From: Gonocerus acuteangulatus
Taxonomy: Eukaryota; Arthropoda; Insecta; Hemiptera; Coreidae
DNA: 64,000 nt
Direction: 5' to 3'
NCBI GenBank assembly: GCA_946811695.1
Contig: OX328130.1
Coordinates: 70,109,973 to 70,173,972 of the forward strand
Shown here: one piece after another, positions 2,765 to 64,000 of the stretch
How positions within the stretch are numbered: the stretch's first letter is position 1
How the letters are laid out: the number at the start of each line of letters is the position of its first letter
Translations under genes and position numbers: made by a program
Notes under the pieces: generated by a model
What the model saw: only the letters and a program-made list of their open reading frames with translations
Told to the model about the DNA's origin: nothing
Databases searched by the model: none

Positions 2765-3953
<1,189 letters not shown>

Positions 3954-7832: not shown

Positions 7833-8675
7833 TTTTAGTGTAGACTACATTACTGAATAATTTGCTGTAAATAACCTATATAAATAAAATAAAAACGTGA
7901 ATAGTTCTGTTCATTTACATTTCTTATGAGGCCTGTTCAATTATTAATTTTGTAAATAATTTGCTTCCAGAGTTTTGTTAATACAAGATACTGTACTACT
8001 TAATAAATACACAAAAACTTCGCATTCCGTCTTTTGATCTGACACAGGAACAGAATACAGTCCCCATAGTGGGAGATAGCGCTCCTTGTGGCGCCTTTCC
8101 GAACCTACGTCTGGCTGGCTAATTGTAATGAAACAGACTTTAAAGTAAACCCTCCTTTCCAATAGACCGATTTACTTAATTTTTACAACACTTCTTTCTC
8201 ATGAGATACCCACGACGCATACTGCATTTCGTTACAATACAGCAGAAATTACGACCGTTATGAGTATATTAGTACTTTAGGTCCTGAGTAAACCCCCCCC
8301 CCTCCAAATAACCCGATTTAGTTTATTTTTACAACCCATTTTTCTCTGTTGATTACCACCACAAATACCAAGTTTCGTTGAAATGTAACAAAAATTACGG
8401 CTGGCAGTGGCAAATTGGTATTGTGGGTCCGGAGTAAACCCCCCCTTCTAATGAACCGATTTAGTTTATGTTTACAACAGAATTCTCTCTTTAGATCAAA
8501 ATAACGAATACCGAGTTTCGTTGAAATATAACAAAAACTACGGCTGGTATGGTCAAATTAGTGTTTTGGGTCTGGGGTAAGCCCCCCCTCCCGGTGGACC
8601 GATTTTGGTGGTTAACGAACTCGTTCAATCGTTTGCTGTTTGAACGCTATATACCACGTTTCATGAAGAAAACAG

Positions 8676-18384: not shown

Positions 18385-19556
<1,172 letters not shown>

Positions 19557-22840: not shown

Positions 22841-23512
22841 TCCACTATTTTTGTTATTGTACCTTTAATGCTGGATATATTCGGTTTAGTTTTTCGCTAA
22901 GCAGAGATGAGCAACGATTAAGTCTTCACGCTGTGTATGATGACTAGAGCCCGGAAGTTAGGCAAAATGCCTTTTTTTATCTGAATGGATATATTGAAGA
23001 ATCAGATAGAAATAAATATGTTTCAATGCATTTAGGAAGTGTAAAGACAATTTTTATTTTGCCTATTTTAAGATTTAAAGCCTTTTTTTGCCTTTTTTAC
23101 TATTTTTTTCTGGGATTTAAACATTTTAAAAAGCACCGTTCATCGAAGACAAAAAAGTTTGCACAAGTTAAATTACATATATCCGTCACAAATATCTATT
23201 CGAGAGCTCATTTTCCCAACCCATGGATTTAACCTCTATAAATAACAGATCCTTCCTTAGTAGAAGGAATGATGAAGCATAATGAATACCAGGATAGAGA
23301 CAGGATGAGAGAAGTACGTCACTTCTTCTTCCTCACACCCCTTTTGCTGTGACGATGGTTAGTTAACTGGTTCTCCGGATTTCGAAATATTAAGATATTG
23401 CAGAGGAAGGGAGGAAATAACTTCCCTCTAACAGGACAATTATAAAATAAGCTGTTAGTCTACTGTTGAACTTCTTAAAGACAGCTCGTGTGTTCGTTCT
23501 CACTTATTTATC

Positions 23513-24985
23513 ATGCCGAAAGTTTCATCGTTGCGTGGTAAATTACATAGCTATGTTCGCGAATTCGGTTCGGATTTACTTTCTACTGATGGAGCTATAC
23601 TCTTCTGCAAAGTCTGTGAAAAATCTATCAATCACGATAAAAAGTATTTTATTACTCAACATTTCGCAACAACGAAACATAAATCTAGGATAAATACTGT
23701 TGGTCCTAAGATTAATTTAATTGCAACAGCAGTTACAACATCCAGCAGGCAATCTCAGTTTTCCCTGGATCTACGCAAAGCTTTCTTGGACTCAGGAATT
23801 CCGTTCTGGAAACTGGAAAATCAATCCCTGAGGACATTACTGCAAAAGTACACTAAAGAAGAGGTTCCATCAGAATCCACGTTAAGAAAAACGTATTTAA
23901 ATATCACCTTTGAAGAGACGATGCAGAGTATTCGACTCAGAGTTGCAGAAAAGAAGATCTGGATCTCCATTGATGAAACTACGGATGCAATGGGACGTTA
24001 CATAGCCAATGTTATCATTGGAACCATGGAAGCAAAGCAAACTGACTTATCATCAGTATATCTTTTGACGACAGAGGAGATGGAGCGAGCAAATGGTACA
24101 GTGGCACAGTTGTTTACCAATTCACTAATGCTACTCTGGCCGGACGGAATACGGCATGATGATGTCCTACTTTTTGTCACAGATGCAGCACCTTACATGA
24201 AAAAAGCAGCTAAAGCCTTACGAGTTCTCTTTCCTAAAATGCTCCACCTCACTTGTCTAGCACATGGCCTCCACAGAATCGCTCAAGAGATAAGAAGTTT
24301 GTATCCTCACGTGGATAAATTAGTTTCTAACGCCAAGAAAATCTTCCTAAAATCACCCTCTCGAATCCGGGTTTTTAAGGACATAGCAACAGAGCTGGCT
24401 TTACCTCCTCAGCCAGTTCTTACCAGATGGGGAACCTGGATCTCAGCAGTAATATATTACTGCAACAACTTGGACAAGATACGTGAGGTAGTTCATGCAG
24501 TATCAGTAGACGAAGTTAGTTCAGTTCGCGAGGTAAAAAAGTTGCTGGACCAAGAAGAGCTTAGCAATGAGCTGGCATTTATAAAAGCACATTACAGTGT
24601 GGTACCGGAAGCAATCTTGAAATTAGAGAAAAGAGATGATTCGCTGGTATCATCTATGGGGATCTTCGAAGATGCTGTAAATCAACTGCTCCAAGCACCA
24701 GGAGAAAAAGGAAAGAGTGTCAGTGAAAAAGTTAAACGTGTTCTGAGTGCTAATGTGGACATCGAAAAAATTAAGAACATTCGTAATGTTCTGAAAGGCG
24801 AAAATTCTGTTTTAACTGGCATGTGTCCTTTCGATGTAGCTTGTTTCAAATTTGCGCCTATCACTTCAGTGGAAGTAGAACGTTCCTTTTCCATGATGAA
24901 AAACATTCTTTCTGACAAGCGTCTGTCTATGACAGTTGATACTTTAAAAAAGCATCTTGTTGTAGCTTGTAATCAGGGAAAGTAA
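23513..24985 (+). CDS. hAT-family transposase, 490 aa, intact
   Basis: N-terminal BED-like zinc finger: C32, C35, H50, H56 (FCKVCEK...TQHFATTKH). The RNase H-like catalytic core has D154 in SIDETTDAM and D224 in FVTDAAPYM, then the CLAH (C-x2-H) motif of the hAT insertion domain near residues 247-250. The C-terminal dimerisation region SVEVERSFSMMKNILSDKR supplies E456 as the likely third acidic residue. Shorter than typical 600-residue hAT transposases, with a reduced insertion domain, resembling the short CGGBP1-like hAT group. It would bind the TIRs and move the element. The start is the first ATG of the frame, about 550 bp from the 5' TIR. Confidence 0.88.
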   Translation: MPKVSSLRGKLHSYVREFGSDLLSTDGAILFCKVCEKSINHDKKYFITQHFATTKHKSRINTVGPKINLIATAVTTSSRQSQFSLDLRKAFLDSGIPFWKLENQSLRTLLQKYTKEEVPSESTLRKTYLNITFEETMQSIRLRVAEKKIWISIDETTDAMGRYIANVIIGTMEAKQTDLSSVYLLTTEEMERANGTVAQLFTNSLMLLWPDGIRHDDVLLFVTDAAPYMKKAAKALRVLFPKMLHLTCLAHGLHRIAQEIRSLYPHVDKLVSNAKKIFLKSPSRIRVFKDIATELALPPQPVLTRWGTWISAVIYYCNNLDKIREVVHAVSVDEVSSVREVKKLLDQEELSNELAFIKAHYSVVPEAILKLEKRDDSLVSSMGIFEDAVNQLLQAPGEKGKSVSEKVKRVLSANVDIEKIKNIRNVLKGENSVLTGMCPFDVACFKFAPITSVEVERSFSMMKNILSDKRLSMTVDTLKKHLVVACNQGK

Positions 24986-25156
24986 GAGTAAGTACAGTAT
25001 TTAAAATGCACCTTATAATTGATAATTAGGAATGAGATTCCTCTTTGCCTTCACTCCTTGTAAATACCTATTTTAATTAAAGTACTTTTATGTATTTCAA
25101 GTGCCTTTTTGCCTGCCTATTTTAACCAAAATTAAATGCCTAACTTCCGGGCTCTA

Positions 25157-26820
25157 ATAATGAGTAAGATTCATCTTTGCCTTCACTCCTAATAAATGCC
25201 TATTTTAACTAAAGTACTGCCTATTTTAACCAAAAATAAATGCCTAACTTCCGGGCTCTAATAATGAGTAAGATTCATCTTTGCCTTCACTCCTAATAAA
25301 TGCCTATTTTAACTAAAGTACTGCCTATTTTAACCAAAATTAAATGCCTAACTTCCGGGCTCTAGTAATGAGTAAGATTCATCTTTGCCTTCACTCCTAA
25401 TAAATGCCTATTTTAACTAAAGTACTGCCTATTTTAACCAAAATTAAATGCCTAACTTCCGGGCTCTATTAATGAGTAAGATTCATCTTTGCCTTCACTC
25501 CTAATAAATGCCTATTTTAACTAAAGTACTGCCTATTTTAACCAAAAATAAATGCCTAACTTCCGGGCTCCCATGATGAGTAAGAGTCATCTTTGCCTTC
25601 ACTCCTAATAAATGCCTATTTTAACTAAAGTACTGCCTATTTTAATCAAAAATAAATGCCTAACTTCCGGGCTCTAATGATGAGTAAGAGTCATCTTTGC
25701 CTTCACTCCTAATAAATGCCTATTTTAACTAAAGTACTGCCTATTTTAACCAAAAAGAAATGCCTAACTTCCGGGCTCTAATGATGAGTAAGAGTCATCT
25801 TTGCCTTCACTCCTAATAAATGCCTATTTTAACTAAAGTACTGCCTATTTTAACCAAAAATAAATGCCTAACTTCCGGGCTCTAATAATGAGTAAGATAC
25901 ATCTTTGCCTTCACTCCTAATAAATGCCTATTTTAACTAAAGTACTGCCTATTTTAACCAAAATTAAATGCCTAACTTCCGGGCTCTAGTAATGAGTAAG
26001 ATTCATCTTTGCCTTCACTCCTAATAAATGCCTATTTTAACTAAAGTACTGCCTATTTTAACCAAAATTAAATGCCTAACTTCCGGGCTCTAGTAATGAG
26101 TAAGATTCATCTTTGCCTTCACTCCTAATAAATGCCTATTTTAACTAAAGTACTGCCTATTTTAACCAAAATTAAATGCCTAACTTCCGGGCTCTAGTAA
26201 TGAGTAAGATTCATCTTTGCCTTCACTCCTAATAAATGCCTATTTTAACTAAAGTACTGCCTATTTTAACCAAAATTAAATGCCTAACTTCCGGGCTCTA
26301 GTAATGAGTAAGATTCATCTTTGCCTTCACTCCTAATAAATGCCTATTTTAACTAAAGTACTGCCTATTTTAACCAAAATTAAATGCCTAACTTCCGGGC
26401 TCTAGTAATGAGTAAGATTCATCTTTGCCTTCACTCCTAATAAATGCCTATTTTAACTAAAGTACTGCCTATTTTAACCAAAATTAAATGCCTAACTTCC
26501 GGGCTCTAGTAATGAGTAAGATTCATCTTTGCCTTCACTCCTAATAAATGCCTATTTTAACTAAAGTACTGCCTATTTTAACCAAAATTAAATGCCTAAC
26601 TTCCGGGCTCTATTAATGAGTAAGATTCATCTTTGCCTTCACTCCTAATAAATGCCTATTTTAACTAAAGTACTGCCTATTTTAACCAAAAATAAATGCC
26701 TAACTTCCGGGCTCTAATGATGAGTAAGATTCATCTTTGCCTTCACTCCTAATAAATGCCTATTTTAACTAAAGTACTGCCTATTTTAACCAAAAATAAA
26801 TGCCTAACTTCCGGGCTCTA
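25157..26820 (+). repeat. 104-bp satellite, 16 units, derived from the hAT 3' end
   Basis: GGGCTCTA recurs every 104 bp from 25149 to 26813. Units begin AT(A/G)ATGAGTAAG and end in the full 3' TIR. The parental, more divergent copy is at about 25030-25156 and has extra bases after AAAGTAC. Units differ at few positions; sites 'AATGATGA', 'AGTAATGA' and 'ATTAATGA' fall in runs, suggesting stepwise block duplication. Confidence 0.92.
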
Positions 26821-26828
26821 ATGATGAC

Positions 26829-29278: not shown

Positions 29279-29717
29279 ACTTCTATGAGTCGAATTCTAG
29301 AAGTCATCACTTCTATAACTTCTAGAAGTCATCACTTCTATAACTTCTAGAAGTCATCACTTCTATAACTTCTAGAAGTCATCACTTCTATAACTTCCAG
29401 AAGTCATCACTTCTATAACTTCTAGAAGCCGTCTCTTCTACAACTTTTAGAAGTCTTCACTTCTATAACTTCTAGAAGTCATCACTTCTATAACTTCTAG
29501 AAGCCGTCTCTATAACTTCTAGAAGTCATCGCTTCTATAACTTCCAGAAGTCATCACTTCTATAGCTTCCAGAAGTCATCACTTCTATAACTTCTAGAAG
29601 TCATCACTTCTATAACTTCTAGAAGTCATCACTTGTATAACTTCTAGAAGTCATCACTTCTATAACTTCTAAAAGCCGTCTCTTCTATAACTTCTAGAAG
29701 TCATCACTTCTATAACT
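29279..29717. repeat. 25-bp minisatellite, about 17 units
   Basis: Unit ACTTCTATAACTTCTAGAAG plus TCATC, with variants (CCGTC, CTTCCAG). Each unit contains the perfect 10-bp palindrome CTTCTAGAAG. Non-coding. Confidence 0.93.
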
Positions 29718-32021: not shown

Positions 32022-34465
32022 ACATATGGAGGGTTCAGAGCACAATTAGACCAAATCCATGTTTTTTAGTTTTCAGAAAACGAGCATTATACGTATTAGT
32101 TACAGAGACGTGGTATAAATCCTAATGACCAGTAAAAGTCTTTAAGAATTTGAACTTAAACACTGCTCTTAATTTTAAATATCACAGACATTACTTACAT
32201 ATAGTTTTGTTCATAAATTAGTTATAACTTGGACTTGGATTACTGGTGATTTGAAAGCATACGAGAATGTCTTCCAGATGTGTAGCAAGAACTGCTACAA
32301 GTGGCAAAATAATGAAGTTAGGACTTAGCCTGATGTAGCACTGAAAAGAACCATTTAAGTAATACTCTTCTATGCCATTACAACATAATACCTCAAGAAT
32401 GTCTTCCAGATGTGTAGCAAGAACTGCTACAAGTGGCAAAATAATAAAGTTAGGACTTAGTCTCCTGTAGCACTGAAAAGAACCATTTTAGTAATACTCT
32501 TCTATGCCATTACAACATAATACCTCAAGAATGTCTTCCAGATGTGTAGCAAGAACTGCTACAAGTGGCAAAATAATGAAGTTAGGACTTCTGTAGCACT
32601 GAAAAGAACCATTTTAGTAATACTCTTCTATGCCATTACAACATAATACCTCAAGAATGTCTTCCAGATGTGTAGCAAGAACTGCTACAAGTGGCAAAAT
32701 AATGAAGTTAGGACTTCTGTAGCACTGAAAAGAACCATTTTAGTAATACTCTTCTATGCCATTACAACATAATACCTCAAGAATGTCTTCCAGATGTGTA
32801 GCAAGAACTGCTACAAGTGGCAAAATAATGAAGTTAGGACTTAGTCTCCTGTAGCACTGAAAAGAACCATTTTAGTAATACTCTTCTATGCCATTACAAC
32901 ATAATACCTCAAGAATGTCTTCCAGATGTGTAGCAAGAACTGCTACAAGTGGCAAAATAATGAAGTTAGGACTTCTGTAGCACTGAAAAGAACCATTTTA
33001 GTAATACTCTTCTATGCCATTACAACATAATACCTCAAGAATGTCTTCCAGATGTGTAGCAAGAACTGCTACAAGTGGCAAAATAATGAAGTTAGGACTT
33101 CTGTAGCACTGAAAAGAACCATTTTAGTAATACTCTTCTATGCCATTACAACATAATACCTCAAGAATGTCTTCCAGATGTGTAGCAAGAACTGCTACAA
33201 GTGGCAAAATAATGAAGTTAGGACTTCTGTAGCACTGAAAAGAACCATTTTAGTAATACTCTTCTATGCCATTACAACATAATACCTCAAGAATGTCTTC
33301 CAGATGTGTAGCAAGAACTGCTACAAGTGGCAAAATAATGAAGTTAGGACTTCTGTAGCACTGAAAAGAACCATTTTAGTAATACTCTTCTATGCCATTA
33401 CAACATAATACCTCAAGAATGTCTTCCAGATGTGTAGCAAGAACTGCTACAAGTGGCAAAATAATGAAGTTAGGACTTCTGTAGCACTGAAAAGAACCAT
33501 TTTAGTAATACTCTTCTATGCCATTACAACATAATACCTCAAGAATGTCTTCCAGATGTGTAGCAAGAACTGCTACAAGTGGCAAAATAATGAAGTTAGG
33601 ACTTCTGTAGCACTGAAAAGAACCATTTTAGTAATACTCTTCTATGCCATTACAACATAATACCTCAAGAATGTCTTCCAGATGTGTAGCAAGAACTGCT
33701 ACAAGTGGCAAAATAATGAAGTTAGGACTTCTGTAGCACTGAAAAGAACCATTTTAGTAATACTCTTCTATGCCATTACAACATAATACCTCAAGAATGT
33801 CTTCCAGATGTGTAGCAAGAACTGCTACAAGTGGCAAAATAATGAAGTTAGGACTTCTGTAGCACTGAAAAGAACCATTTTAGTAATACTCTTCTATGCC
33901 ATTACAACATAATACCTCAAGAATGTCTTCCAGATGTGTAGCAAGAACTGCTACAAGTGGCAAAATAATGAAGTTAGGACTTCTGTAGCACTGAAAAGAA
34001 CCATTTTAGTAATACTCTTCTATGCCATTACAACATAATACCTCAAGAATGTCTTCCAGATGTGTAGCAAGAACTGCTACAAGTGGCAAAATAATGAAGT
34101 TAGGACTTCTGTAGCACTGAAAAGAACCATTTTAGTAATACTCTTCTATGCCATTACAACATAATACCTCAAGAATGTCTTCCAGATGTGTAGCAAGAAC
34201 TGCTACAAGTGGCAAAATAATGAAGTTAGGACTTCTGTAGCACTGAAAAGAACCATTTTAGTAATACTCTTCTATGCCATTACAACATAATACCTCAAGA
34301 ATGTCTTCCAGATGTGTAGCAAGAACTGCTACAAGTGGCAAAATAATGAAGTTAGGACTTCTGTAGCACTGAAAAGAACCATTTTAGTAATACTCTTCTA
34401 TGCCATTACAACATAGAATGTCAAAAATGGACTTGGTCTAGTTGTGCTCTCAACCCTCCATATGT
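32022..34465. mobile_element. TIR-bounded element filled by a 126-bp satellite
   Basis: 32022-32060 and 34427-34465 are inverted copies (39 bp, three mismatches; ends ACATATGGAGGGTT). The bases just inside are TA/TGGAGGG, so a TA target is possible, but no longer TSD was found. The interior is almost wholly a minisatellite; no transposase frame. Confidence 0.7.
32263..34414. repeat. 126/132-bp minisatellite, 17 units
   Basis: The marker GAATGTCTTCCAGATGTG recurs at 126-bp steps from 32527 on, with 132-bp steps at the left end and once at 32779-32911, where the units keep extra bases (AGTCTC or AGCCTG). Later units are nearly identical, indicating recent homogenisation. Open frames inside are incidental. 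Confidence 0.93.
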
Positions 34466-37908: not shown

Positions 37909-38798
37909 AAAGTCCGTCACGCAGGAGCTGCATAACTAAGCACTTTCCTCAGAATTTGGGTAGTGTAGACTGCTTTCCAGAACAATTTGCTTAAAATATC
38001 CTACATAAATAAAATAAAAACATGAATAGTTCTCTTTTAATTTTGTAATGAGTAACTGATAAATTATTAACTTGCTTCCAGAGTTATGTTTACACATGGT
38101 ACCTATTACACTACGTAATAAATACAAAAAACCTCATATTATCGTATTTTGATCTAACGCAGGAACCGGATACAGTCCCTCTAGCGCTCCTTGCGGCGCC
38201 TTTGTGGACCTATGTCTGGCTGGCTTTTCAATTGAAATATATTACAAAGTAAACCCCCCTTTCCGATTGACCGATTCAGCTCATTTTTATAACACTTCTT
38301 TCTCATGAGTTACCCACGTTCACCCAGCAGAAATTACGACCAGTATGAGTATATTAGTAATTTGGGTCCGGAGTAAACCCCCCCCCCCTCCTAATAAACC
38401 GATTTAGTTTATTTTTACAACACATATTTACCTGTAGATTACCACTATGAATACCGAGTTTCGTCAAAATATACCTAAAATCACGGCTGGTAGTGGCGAA
38501 TTGGTATTGTGGGTCCGGAGTAAACCCCCCGATTATGAACCGATTTAGTTCATTTTTATATCTCACTTTTCTCTCTATATCACCACTACGAATACCAAGT
38601 TTCGTTGAAATATAACAAATATTACGGCTGAAATGGTCAAATTAGTGTTTTGGGTTCGGGGTAAACCCCCCCCCCTTCCGGTGGACCGATTTTGGTGGTT
38701 AACGAACTCGTTCAATCGTTTGCTAATTGAATGCTATATACCAAGTTTCGTGACGAAAAAACAAAAACTCTGGCCGCTATCGTGTTAACAGACACATA

Positions 38799-43423: not shown

Positions 43424-44594
43424 AGTCCGTCACGCAGGAGCTGCATAAGTAAGCACTTTCCTCAGAATTTGGGTAGTGTAGACTGATTTCCAGAACAATT
43501 TGCTTAAAATATCCTACATAAATAAAATAAAAACATGAATAGTTCTCTTTTAAATTTGTAATGAGTAACTGATCAATTATTAATTTGCTTCCAGAGTTAT
43601 GTTTACACCTATTACACTACGTAATAAATACAAAAAACCTCATATTATCGTATTTTGATCTAACGCAGGAACAGGATACAGTCACTCTAGTGGTAGAAAG
43701 CGCTCCTTGCGGCGGCTTTGTGAACCTACGTCTGACGGGCTTTTCTATTGAAATATATTACAAATTAAACCCCCGCTTTCCGATTGACCGATTCAGCTCA
43801 TTTTTACAACACTTCTTTCTCATGCGGTACCCACGACGTATACCGCGTTTCGTTACATTACAGCAGAAATTACGACCGGTATGAGTATATTAGGAATTTT
43901 TATTACAACACATTTTTATTTTTTTACAACACATATTTACCTGTAGATTACCACTACGAATGCCGAGTTTCGTCGAAATATACCAAAAATCATGGCTGGT
44001 AGTGGCGAATTGGTATTGTGGGTCCGGAGTAAACCCCCCCCCCTCCTAATGAACCGATTTAGTTTATTTTTACAACACGTGTTTACCTGTGGATTACCAC
44101 TACGAATACCGAGTTTCGTCGAAATATACCACAAATCACGGCTGGTAGTGGCGAATTGGTATTGTGGGTCCGGAGTAAACCCCCCACCCTTCTAATGAAC
44201 CGATTTAGTTCATTTTTATATCTCACTTTTCTCTCTATATTACCACTACGAATACCAAGTTTCGTTGAAATATAACAAATATTACGGCTGACATAGTCAA
44301 ATTAGTGTTTTGGGTTCGGGGTAAACCCCCCCTTCCGGTGGACCGACTTTGGTGGTTAACGAACTCGTTCAATCGTTTGCTAATTGAATGCTATATACCA
44401 AGTTTCATGACGAAAAAACAAAAACTCTGGCCGCTATCGTGTTAACAGACATATATATAGATATATATAAATTTTAACGGGGGTCATTTTCGGTGTCTAC
44501 GAGGTAGGATCGATAAAGATTTGAAGAAATTTTTCAAAAATTCCGTCATGAGTCCAACCTCAAAAGCTACTTTCCTTCGGAGGAAAGTGCTAAA
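43424..44594 (+). repeat. Dispersed repeat family B, copy 6
   Basis: Full set of family features, but the usual long (TA)n is reduced to a short TATATATAGATATATATA at about 44450-44469. The right end hairpin CTTCGGAGGAAAGTGCTAA abuts the piggyBac fragment. Confidence 0.75.
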
Positions 44595-63584: not shown

Positions 63585-64000
63585 TATATAAGTCTAGAGC
63601 GCTGGGAAACTGCTTTTTATCTCTGCTTATAAGCGTCTAGAGTGCTGAGGGAACTGTTTTTCATTCCCACGTATATGTGACGAGAGCGCTGGGGGAACTG
63701 CTTTTCAGACCCGCTTATATACGTCTAGAATGCTGGGGGAACTGCTTTTCAGGACCACTTATATGAGCCTAGAGTGCTGGGGAACTGCTTTTCACACCCA
63801 TATATATATAAGCGTCTCCAGCGCTGGGGATGCTGCTTTCCACGCCTGCATATAAGCATCTAGAGCGTGAGGGGCACTGCTTTTTTCACCTGCATATAAG
63901 CATCTAGAGCGCTGCAGGAGCTACTTTCCACGCCTGCATATAAGTGTCTAGAGCGTGAGGGGCACTGCTTTTTTCACCTGCATATAAGCATCTAGAGCGC
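63585..64000. repeat. ~45-50-bp minisatellite running off the window
   Basis: Repeated CATATAAGCATCTAGAGCGC and GGGGAACTGCTTTTCA words. Spacing is about 43-50 bp, with diverged units at the left and more regular ones to the right edge. Confidence 0.8.

Follow-up and report, generated by a model that had tools for sequence, protein, structure and literature searches.

Multiplied 3' ends in a hAT transposon family of Gonocerus acuteangulatus, with a 16-unit array inside one copy

The route from transposon to tandem repeat is often inferred from end products. Among the transposons that bear on it are hobo, which is a hAT element, and members of the Mutator superfamily, whose target site duplication (TSD) is about 9 bp long. 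The portions of the sources available to us describe several related cases. In plant Mutator-like elements extra terminal inverted repeats (TIRs) stand in tandem inside a single TSD, such copies have been amplified, and in one family elements with tandem TIRs outnumber those with single TIRs (Ferguson and Jiang 2012; PMC3310237). The terminus of Tetris (TIR-220) in Drosophila virilis gives rise to satellite-like arrays, its complete copies having 8-9 bp TSDs (PMC4079207), and direct repeats of ~140 bp lengthen the ends of the DNA transposon Galileo (PMC4168063). McGurk and Barbash (through the review PMC12628747) described transposons standing as tandem dimers and hobo in an array of 16 tandem copies; in these cases an element feeds tandem arrays whose junctions lie at target duplications. 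The coral element CMITE-IN arose as a new mobile element when one element inserted into another (PMC2872659), and Hermes combines an 8-bp TSD and an nTnnnnAn target with subterminal repeats at its ends (PMC10368747). Here we describe a hAT element of the coreid bug Gonocerus acuteangulatus, and its family, in which the 3' end alone has been multiplied. The element lies in a stretch of 64,000 nucleotides of contig OX328130.1 (assembly GCA_946811695.1), which is called the window throughout and corresponds to C26:70,109,973-70,173,972 in the host genome that was searched (1.106 Gb, 135 contigs).

Multiplied 3' ends in the window and across the genome

The window element occupies positions 22945-26820 (3876 bp) inside an 8-bp TSD. 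A sequence-only reading of the window had described a hAT transposon with an intact transposase ORF, 16 perfect-period 104-bp units and 17 potential 3' ends. The array is indeed built from the element's 3' end and lies inside the TSD, since ATGATGAC flanks the element on both sides. The TIR core AACTTCCGGGCTC occurs 17 times from 25142 to 26806 with all 16 spacings exactly 104 bp, and Tandem Repeats Finder reported a period of 104 with 98% matches, 0% indels and a score of 3227. Because the periodicity is exact, a chance origin of the array is excluded. The spacing and the number of TIRs were thus as described, but only 16 of the 17 TIRs are complete, as unit 4 closes in GGGCTCCC. The units start with ATAATGAG or its variants GTAATGAG, TTAATGAG and ATGATGAG; units 9-14 (six of the 16) are identical, and distinct, ordered variants occur among the units. 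The body of the element differs from the majority sequence of the copies by 0.63%, the lowest value among 21 copies (0.63-1.53%). A plasmid collection searched with the array gave no match.

In order to see how many 3' ends other copies have, the region 22945-25156 was used as a query and the 40 best-scoring copies of 2223 first-look candidates were examined, so that copy counts are lower bounds. The 3' ends were readable in 38 of these; L042 and L047 were without a recognisable 3' TIR in the piece examined. Two 3' TIRs were found in 31 of the 38, spaced 138 bp apart in 30 and 134 bp apart in L031. Four copies (L017, L021, L036 and L039) had a single 3' TIR, and three had more than two: L027 with four, L043 (with L067) with five and the window element with 17. 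Both flanks were available for 32 multi-ended copies: 24 had identical 8-mers outside the outermost ends, 6 had one mismatch, and one copy each had two and three mismatches. Since the outer TSD is exact in 24 of 32, two-ended elements moved as such, via the outermost 3' end. A doubled 3' end is thus mobile and a trait at the level of the family, and it is the commonest form among the autonomous-type copies examined. The sequence-only reading would have been undone had all other copies been one-ended and the array an assembly artefact found only here; instead, most of the copies read are two-ended, and doubling is not special to the window copy.

Genome-wide, the exact TIR had 2127 matches (1077 + 1050; none for a reversed control), and the junction of the TIR with ATAATGAG had 148 (69 + 79; reversed control, 0), a number that includes plain insertions with ATAATGAG as their own TSD. 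The first 100 junction matches listed fall into 92 loci, seven of which hold two or more junctions. At one of the seven, C1:129254520, the element is probably two-ended with ATAATGAG as its own TSD, because ATAATGAG also stands at a 5' TIR 3.3 kb off. At the remaining six, at least three ends would be expected, a number read directly at L027 and deduced from junction spacing at the rest.

What sets the window copy apart is the 104-bp version. Its unit equals the 138-bp outer block found in other copies minus exactly 34 bp, between two copies of the 11-bp direct repeat CTGCCTATTTT. The exact word spanning this deletion had 15 genome matches in a search without mismatches, all in the window array, and is absent from one of the 16 units through a one-base change. 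As far as this word goes, the 34-bp deletion and the 16-fold amplification appear to belong to the window copy alone. The outer TSD encloses the array whether amplification came before or after insertion. The suggested transposon-to-satellite transition holds insofar as a tandem array has grown from the end of an element. However, a satellite would be a long array independent of its parent, and this array spans 1664 bp at one locus (by the exact word) inside the element; it is a minisatellite-scale seed, not an established satellite.

Table 1. Features of the hAT element, in window coordinates
Feature	Position	Strand	Basis or remark
5' TSD ATGATGAC	22937..22944	+	sequence identity with 3' TSD
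5' TIR TAGAGCCCGGAAGTTAGGCA, 20 bp	22945..22964	+	
hAT transposase open reading frame (ORF), uninterrupted, 490 aa, DUF659 + Dimer_Tnp_hAT	23513..24985	+	Pfam
u0, inner 3' end block, 135 bp, from ATAATTAG to first 3' TIR	25022..25156	+	
ATAATTAG, site in u0 homologous to unit start	25022-25029	+	
First 3' TIR, closing u0	25137-25156	+	
Array, 16 units x 104 bp, each the 138-bp u1 block minus 34 bp, with 3' TIR at end	25157..26820	+	
First fossil-TSD-like 8-mer ATAATGAG, adjoining first 3' TIR	25157..25164	+	
Degenerate TIR end of unit 4, CTCCC for CTCTA	25568..25572	+	in cluster of TIR-junction changes
Outermost 3' TIR, partner of the TSD	26801..26820	+	
3' TSD ATGATGAC	26821..26828	+	

Transposases of the hAT superfamily have a conserved catalytic acidic triad and a dimerisation domain at the C-terminus. 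The transposase ORF matched DUF659 in Pfam with 59.2 bits (cut-off 34.7) and passed narrowly for this dimerisation domain, Dimer_Tnp_hAT, with 22.2 bits (cut-off 21.4; positions 45-79 of 84). No Mutator domain appeared in the Pfam result, and the element has 20-bp TIRs with its 8-bp TSD. The ORF looks full length, because most of the relatives among the matches listed are of similar length; those named come from Blattella, Cryptotermes, aphids and Galendromus as well as from Trichinella and a skate, Leucoraja. The closest of the listed matches stands at 88% over 87%. A sequence search of solved structures found no transposase among 5 chains (E 0.27 or more). TAGAG stands at both ends of the element and fits YARNG, the end consensus of the short TIRs of hAT elements. 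The TSDs of 36 family copies with both flanks were exact in 27, with one mismatch in 7, two in 1 and three in 1, and T at position 2 (32 of 35) and A at position 7 (33 of 35) agree with the nTnnnnAn preference. At the level of sequence, membership in the hAT superfamily and an intact ORF are thereby confirmed.

Origin of the doubled end

The sequence at the inner junction is the main clue to how the end was doubled. ATAATGAG stands directly 3' of the inner TIR in 32 of the 33 other multi-ended copies, whatever their own TSD, and L030 has ATAATGAC there. This contradicts the earlier suggestion that the 8-mers at the unit starts were captured from the target of the window locus. The TSDs of 35 copies gave the motif nTnATnAn, for which ATAATGAG ranks in the top 0.26% of background 8-mers (background composition assumed); TTAATGAG, in the top 0.47%, and ATAATTAG, the homologous site of u0, in the top 0.64%, are target-like too. 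The inner TIR is thus kept to its last base and then followed by a target-like 8-mer. ATAATGAG was also found immediately before a 5' TIR at nine loci, one of them another array; because the other eight lie in DNA unrelated to the element (90 bp upstream), ATAATGAG is an accepted target.

The same site was located in 22 single-ended relatives, drawn from the first listed TIR matches and all on contig C1. It was uninterrupted, reading exactly ATAATGAG in 7, TTAATGAG in 12 and a one-base variant in 2, with nothing alignable in 1. The tails of the seven relatives that were compared closely are 74.6-93.8% identical to u1 (six at 88.4-93.8%, L083 at 74.6%), and u0 is 90.9% identical to u1 (132 columns). 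A complete TIR followed by ATAATGAG, a site present once and uninterrupted in 7 of 22 relatives, is the arrangement that a nested insertion leaves. Because it is target-like and uninterrupted in single-ended relatives, ATAATGAG at the junction is best read as a fossil TSD, left when an element long ago inserted into a relative's 3' end. In a tree of the end blocks, u0 copies and u1 copies each have a clade of their own (100/99 and 99/97), and single-ended relatives fall between the two.

We therefore favor, with somewhat better than even confidence, an account in which self-insertion into a relative, followed by unequal exchange or slippage, made the doubled end and the array. The starting event would have been insertion of a hAT element, driven by its own transposase, at target-like ATAATGAG in the 3' subterminal region of a related copy. 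The 3' TIR of the inserted element would then have adjoined the 8-bp TSD and the last 130 bp of the recipient, closing in a second 3' TIR, and the inserted 5' end and the recipient's outer 3' end would have travelled as one unit. Tandem 3' blocks would have allowed unequal exchange or slippage to alter the block number in single copies. In the window copy, deletion of 34 bp between the 11-bp repeats would have reduced the 138-bp outer block to 104 bp, the version that would then have been amplified to 16 units within the outer TSD. The structures themselves, the mobility of two-ended elements, the 34-bp difference and the confinement of the deletion word to the window array are direct observations; transposition as the origin of the first junction, the choice of recipient and the mechanism of exchange are inferred.

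Several observations weigh against this account. The founding filled site, with recipient sequence, ATAATGAG and a 5' TIR, was not among the nine exact 5' junction loci over the 90 bp upstream. The identity of u1 to six of the relatives is only slightly above that to u0, and L080 is no closer to u1 than to u0. The forks between the u0 and u1 clades are weak (80/77, 87/83 and 84/73), and the bootstrap had not converged. In an approximately unbiased (AU) test with 35 rows, from which L083, L081 and those of the window were left out, a single clade of u0 and u1 was not rejected (p 0.146). AAAGTAC is common to u0 and u1 and absent from all seven relatives and from L077 (see below); this sharing suggests that the recipient stood near the autonomous family, or that the end was duplicated in cis. 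In addition, the single-ended copies L017, L021, L036 and L088, which carry A at the variable site described in the next section, may be ancestral and not products of exchange.

A further relative, L077 (C1:45456846-45457806), is 921 bp long and has two 3' TIRs 138 bp apart with the same ATAATGAG junction. It was considered as proof of a second self-insertion and set aside, as the tests rejected neither a single clade of its inner and outer blocks (p 0.109) nor a grouping of its outer block with u1 (p 0.082). L077 may reflect a second insertion at this preferred site, or it may descend from a single old event.

There is a second route within the family. At L138 with L137 (C31:19649000-19653571; at C31:19,651,890), a 1.1-kb element flanked by the TSD CTCATTAC carries seven 3' TIRs at a spacing of 48 bp. 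After the TIR stands CTCATTAC in six cases and CTCATTAT in one, and the same piece of flanking DNA comes next. At this locus TSD and flank were captured in situ. The 9-bp word ATAAATGCC is common to the flank and the subterminal region, and this sharing can explain the duplication.

Such in-situ duplication of TIR, TSD and flanking DNA was also considered as the start of the window array. However, the 8-mers of the window units are ATAATGAG-like whereas the TSD is ATGATGAC, the remainder of each unit is element 3' end and not flank, and ATAATGAG follows the inner TIR in copies bearing other TSDs; for the window, flank capture is the least probable of the explanations considered. A more substantial alternative is that the doubled end arose in cis, when slippage or end joining duplicated the final ~135 bp of the same element in tandem, the 8-mer being a coincidence. 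The homology of u0 and u1 along their whole length, the AAAGTAC that they share against the seven compared relatives and the AU result would all agree with it. On the other hand, the junction coincides exactly with the final base of the TIR, the next 8 bp rank so high for the target motif, and u0 and u1 form separate clades with relatives between, albeit through weak forks. Thus, duplication in cis seems somewhat unlikely.

Two whole elements might instead have inserted at one TSD, with most of the second then lost. Double insertion is known for transposable elements, hobo reaching up to 16 tandem copies (PMC12628747). Yet ATAATGAG of u1 aligns, together with the 3' homology, to a position inside the 3' ends of the relatives; because of this alignment it looks like recipient-internal sequence and not host target, and a double insertion at a shared TSD appears very improbable. 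It is slightly less probable still that misassembly created the array or gave a wrong number of units. The unit number rests on the assembly, and six of the 16 units are identical; but the units bear distinct, ordered variants, the exact deletion word is confined to one place, and shorter arrays of like kind occur at L027, L043 and L138 in the same assembly. Self-insertion into a relative thus remains our preferred explanation for the doubled end.

Unit number, choice of 3' end and further repeats

One site just inside the TIR is informative about changes in unit number. In two-ended copies it is T in the inner and A in the outermost ends. L027 has the order T,T,T,A, whereas L043 has T,A,A,A,A; these orders would fit the two product types expected from exchange on either side of the site. 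The window array mixes T and A states and, with its identical run and repeated order of unit types, fits what unequal exchange would give, with slippage as a possible alternative.

The inner 3' ends were considered as the source of single-ended copies. This possibility was rejected for L017, L021, L036 and L088 (a further single-ended copy, outside the 40 scored), all of which carry the u0 body with A; these copies could be ancestral or reciprocal products of exchange, and their bodies do not separate the cases. L039 is the sole copy of 38 with the T state expected from use of an inner end, and inner-end use is at most rare. The sequence-only reading had looked to copies with different end numbers and matched TSDs for evidence of alternative ends. 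Copies with 1, 2, 4, 5 and 17 ends and matching TSDs were found, but they do not show use of inner ends, for which L039 is the only candidate. These results suggest that the hAT transposase picks the outermost 3' end. A tree of 21 copy bodies had no starred fork, and independent gains and losses are therefore not countable from it.

Four of the eight unit variants counted as independent lie within a 5-bp span at the TIR junction. The scan gave p 0.018, with the eight events grouped by us and the T/A site left out; the value of 0.00025 would be valid only had the span been named beforehand, whereas it was chosen afterwards. The cluster is a hint of repeated cutting and repair.

It is possible that TGCC words are candidate sites for the transposase. 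TGCC is enriched at both ends, with 3 and 5 occurrences in the two terminal stretches of 180 bp, compared to letter-shuffle means of 0.14 and 0.29, and once in the 1.85-kb middle (5 times on the other strand); there are four in the first 104-bp unit and 64 in the array. For Hermes, binding is proposed to begin at the left end, with the right end recognised afterwards through its TIR (PMC10368747); purely by analogy, spare right ends may not disturb assembly. Extra 3' ends could even be favored and self-propagating, if added TGCC words let multi-ended elements out-compete others and cutting at inner ends provoked breaks that grow arrays and leave scars at TIR junctions. We regard this idea as unlikely. 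If true, it would describe a hAT lineage that turns self-insertion into end multiplication and seeds satellites repeatedly.

Changes at the 5' end were also seen. In L009 (C1:92803175-92812088, about 690-1205), a two-ended copy, the 5' end and 5' flank are duplicated in place, with 5' TIRs 505 bp apart. At L132 (C15:91578319-91578695), one of the eight loci with ATAATGAG before a 5' TIR and unrelated DNA upstream, a ~26-bp tip of a 5' TIR is followed by target-like CTGATAAC and another 5' TIR, which looks like one element inside the 5' end of another.

The window holds further repeats. An unrelated-looking 126-bp tandem array lies at 32264-34415 (16.9 copies, 98%; a few units with ~8 extra bases) and a 25-bp array at 29295-29717 (17 copies, 90%). 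Short arrays of 141-146-bp units occur at 3146-3583, 8268-8605, 18866-19178, 38353-38679 and 43921-44332; their consensus units share a GGGTCCGGAGTAAACCCCCCC-like stretch on one strand (the complement at 3146), several lie near AT-dinucleotide runs, and they are perhaps part of another dispersed element. Repeats of 44/88 bp at 63585-64000 reach the end of the window.

Comparison with known systems

One genome holds the intermediates together here, with one-, two-, four-, five- and seventeen-ended copies, and the TSDs show that the two-ended form moves. The locus with seven TIRs adds an alternative, in which TSD and flank were captured. The family provides naturally occurring multi-ended substrates with which the choice of 3' end by a hAT transposase can be studied, and a small, traceable case of mobile DNA becoming tandem repeats.

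The Mutator-like elements belong to another superfamily and have long TIRs, whereas the window family has 20-bp TIRs, an 8-bp TSD and a hAT domain. Their amplified forms are doubled at both ends, and only one of the one-sided forms had an additional copy (PMC3310237); in the window family the 3' end alone is doubled and this form predominates among the copies read. The available portion of that paper reports no recognizable TSD at the internal TIR and mentions no many-unit arrays (PMC3310237), whereas a target-like 8-mer stands at the internal TIR here. Tetris is a foldback element whose complete copies are without conserved ORFs; its repeats (610 in 69 contigs) come from the outer domain of long TIRs, and the units do not each hold a complete terminus, according to the portion available (PMC4079207). 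Galileo belongs to the P superfamily, and in a single copy in D. willistoni the repeats lie ~1.7 kb inside long TIRs and are not termini (PMC4168063).

In the hobo array whole elements stand in tandem at a shared TSD (PMC12628747), unlike the window family, in which one end is multiplied with what appears to be a fossil TSD internal to a relative. CMITE-IN is piggyBac-related (TTAA), and the available account of it describes no doubled end and no array (PMC2872659). Hermes has one left and one right end (PMC10368747), and its likeness to the window family lies in the 8-bp TSD, the target pattern and the ends. Among the papers listed, judged by titles and abstract openings and with few subscription journals covered, no hAT family with multiplied 3' ends was found, nor one with the 3' end alone multiplied and a target-like 8-mer in each unit; the available part of PMC9659126 has nothing on hAT ends, and a text search of PMC8097297 gave no passage on the terms used. 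The multiplied 3' end on which the sequence-only reading had centered is thus a trait shared with other copies, but its 104-bp version appears, by the exact word, to be private to this locus. Tandem TIRs, repeats internal to TIRs and tandem hobo copies are already known; what appears to be new in the present family, against the literature covered, is a hAT 3' end multiplied with a target-like 8-mer in each unit.

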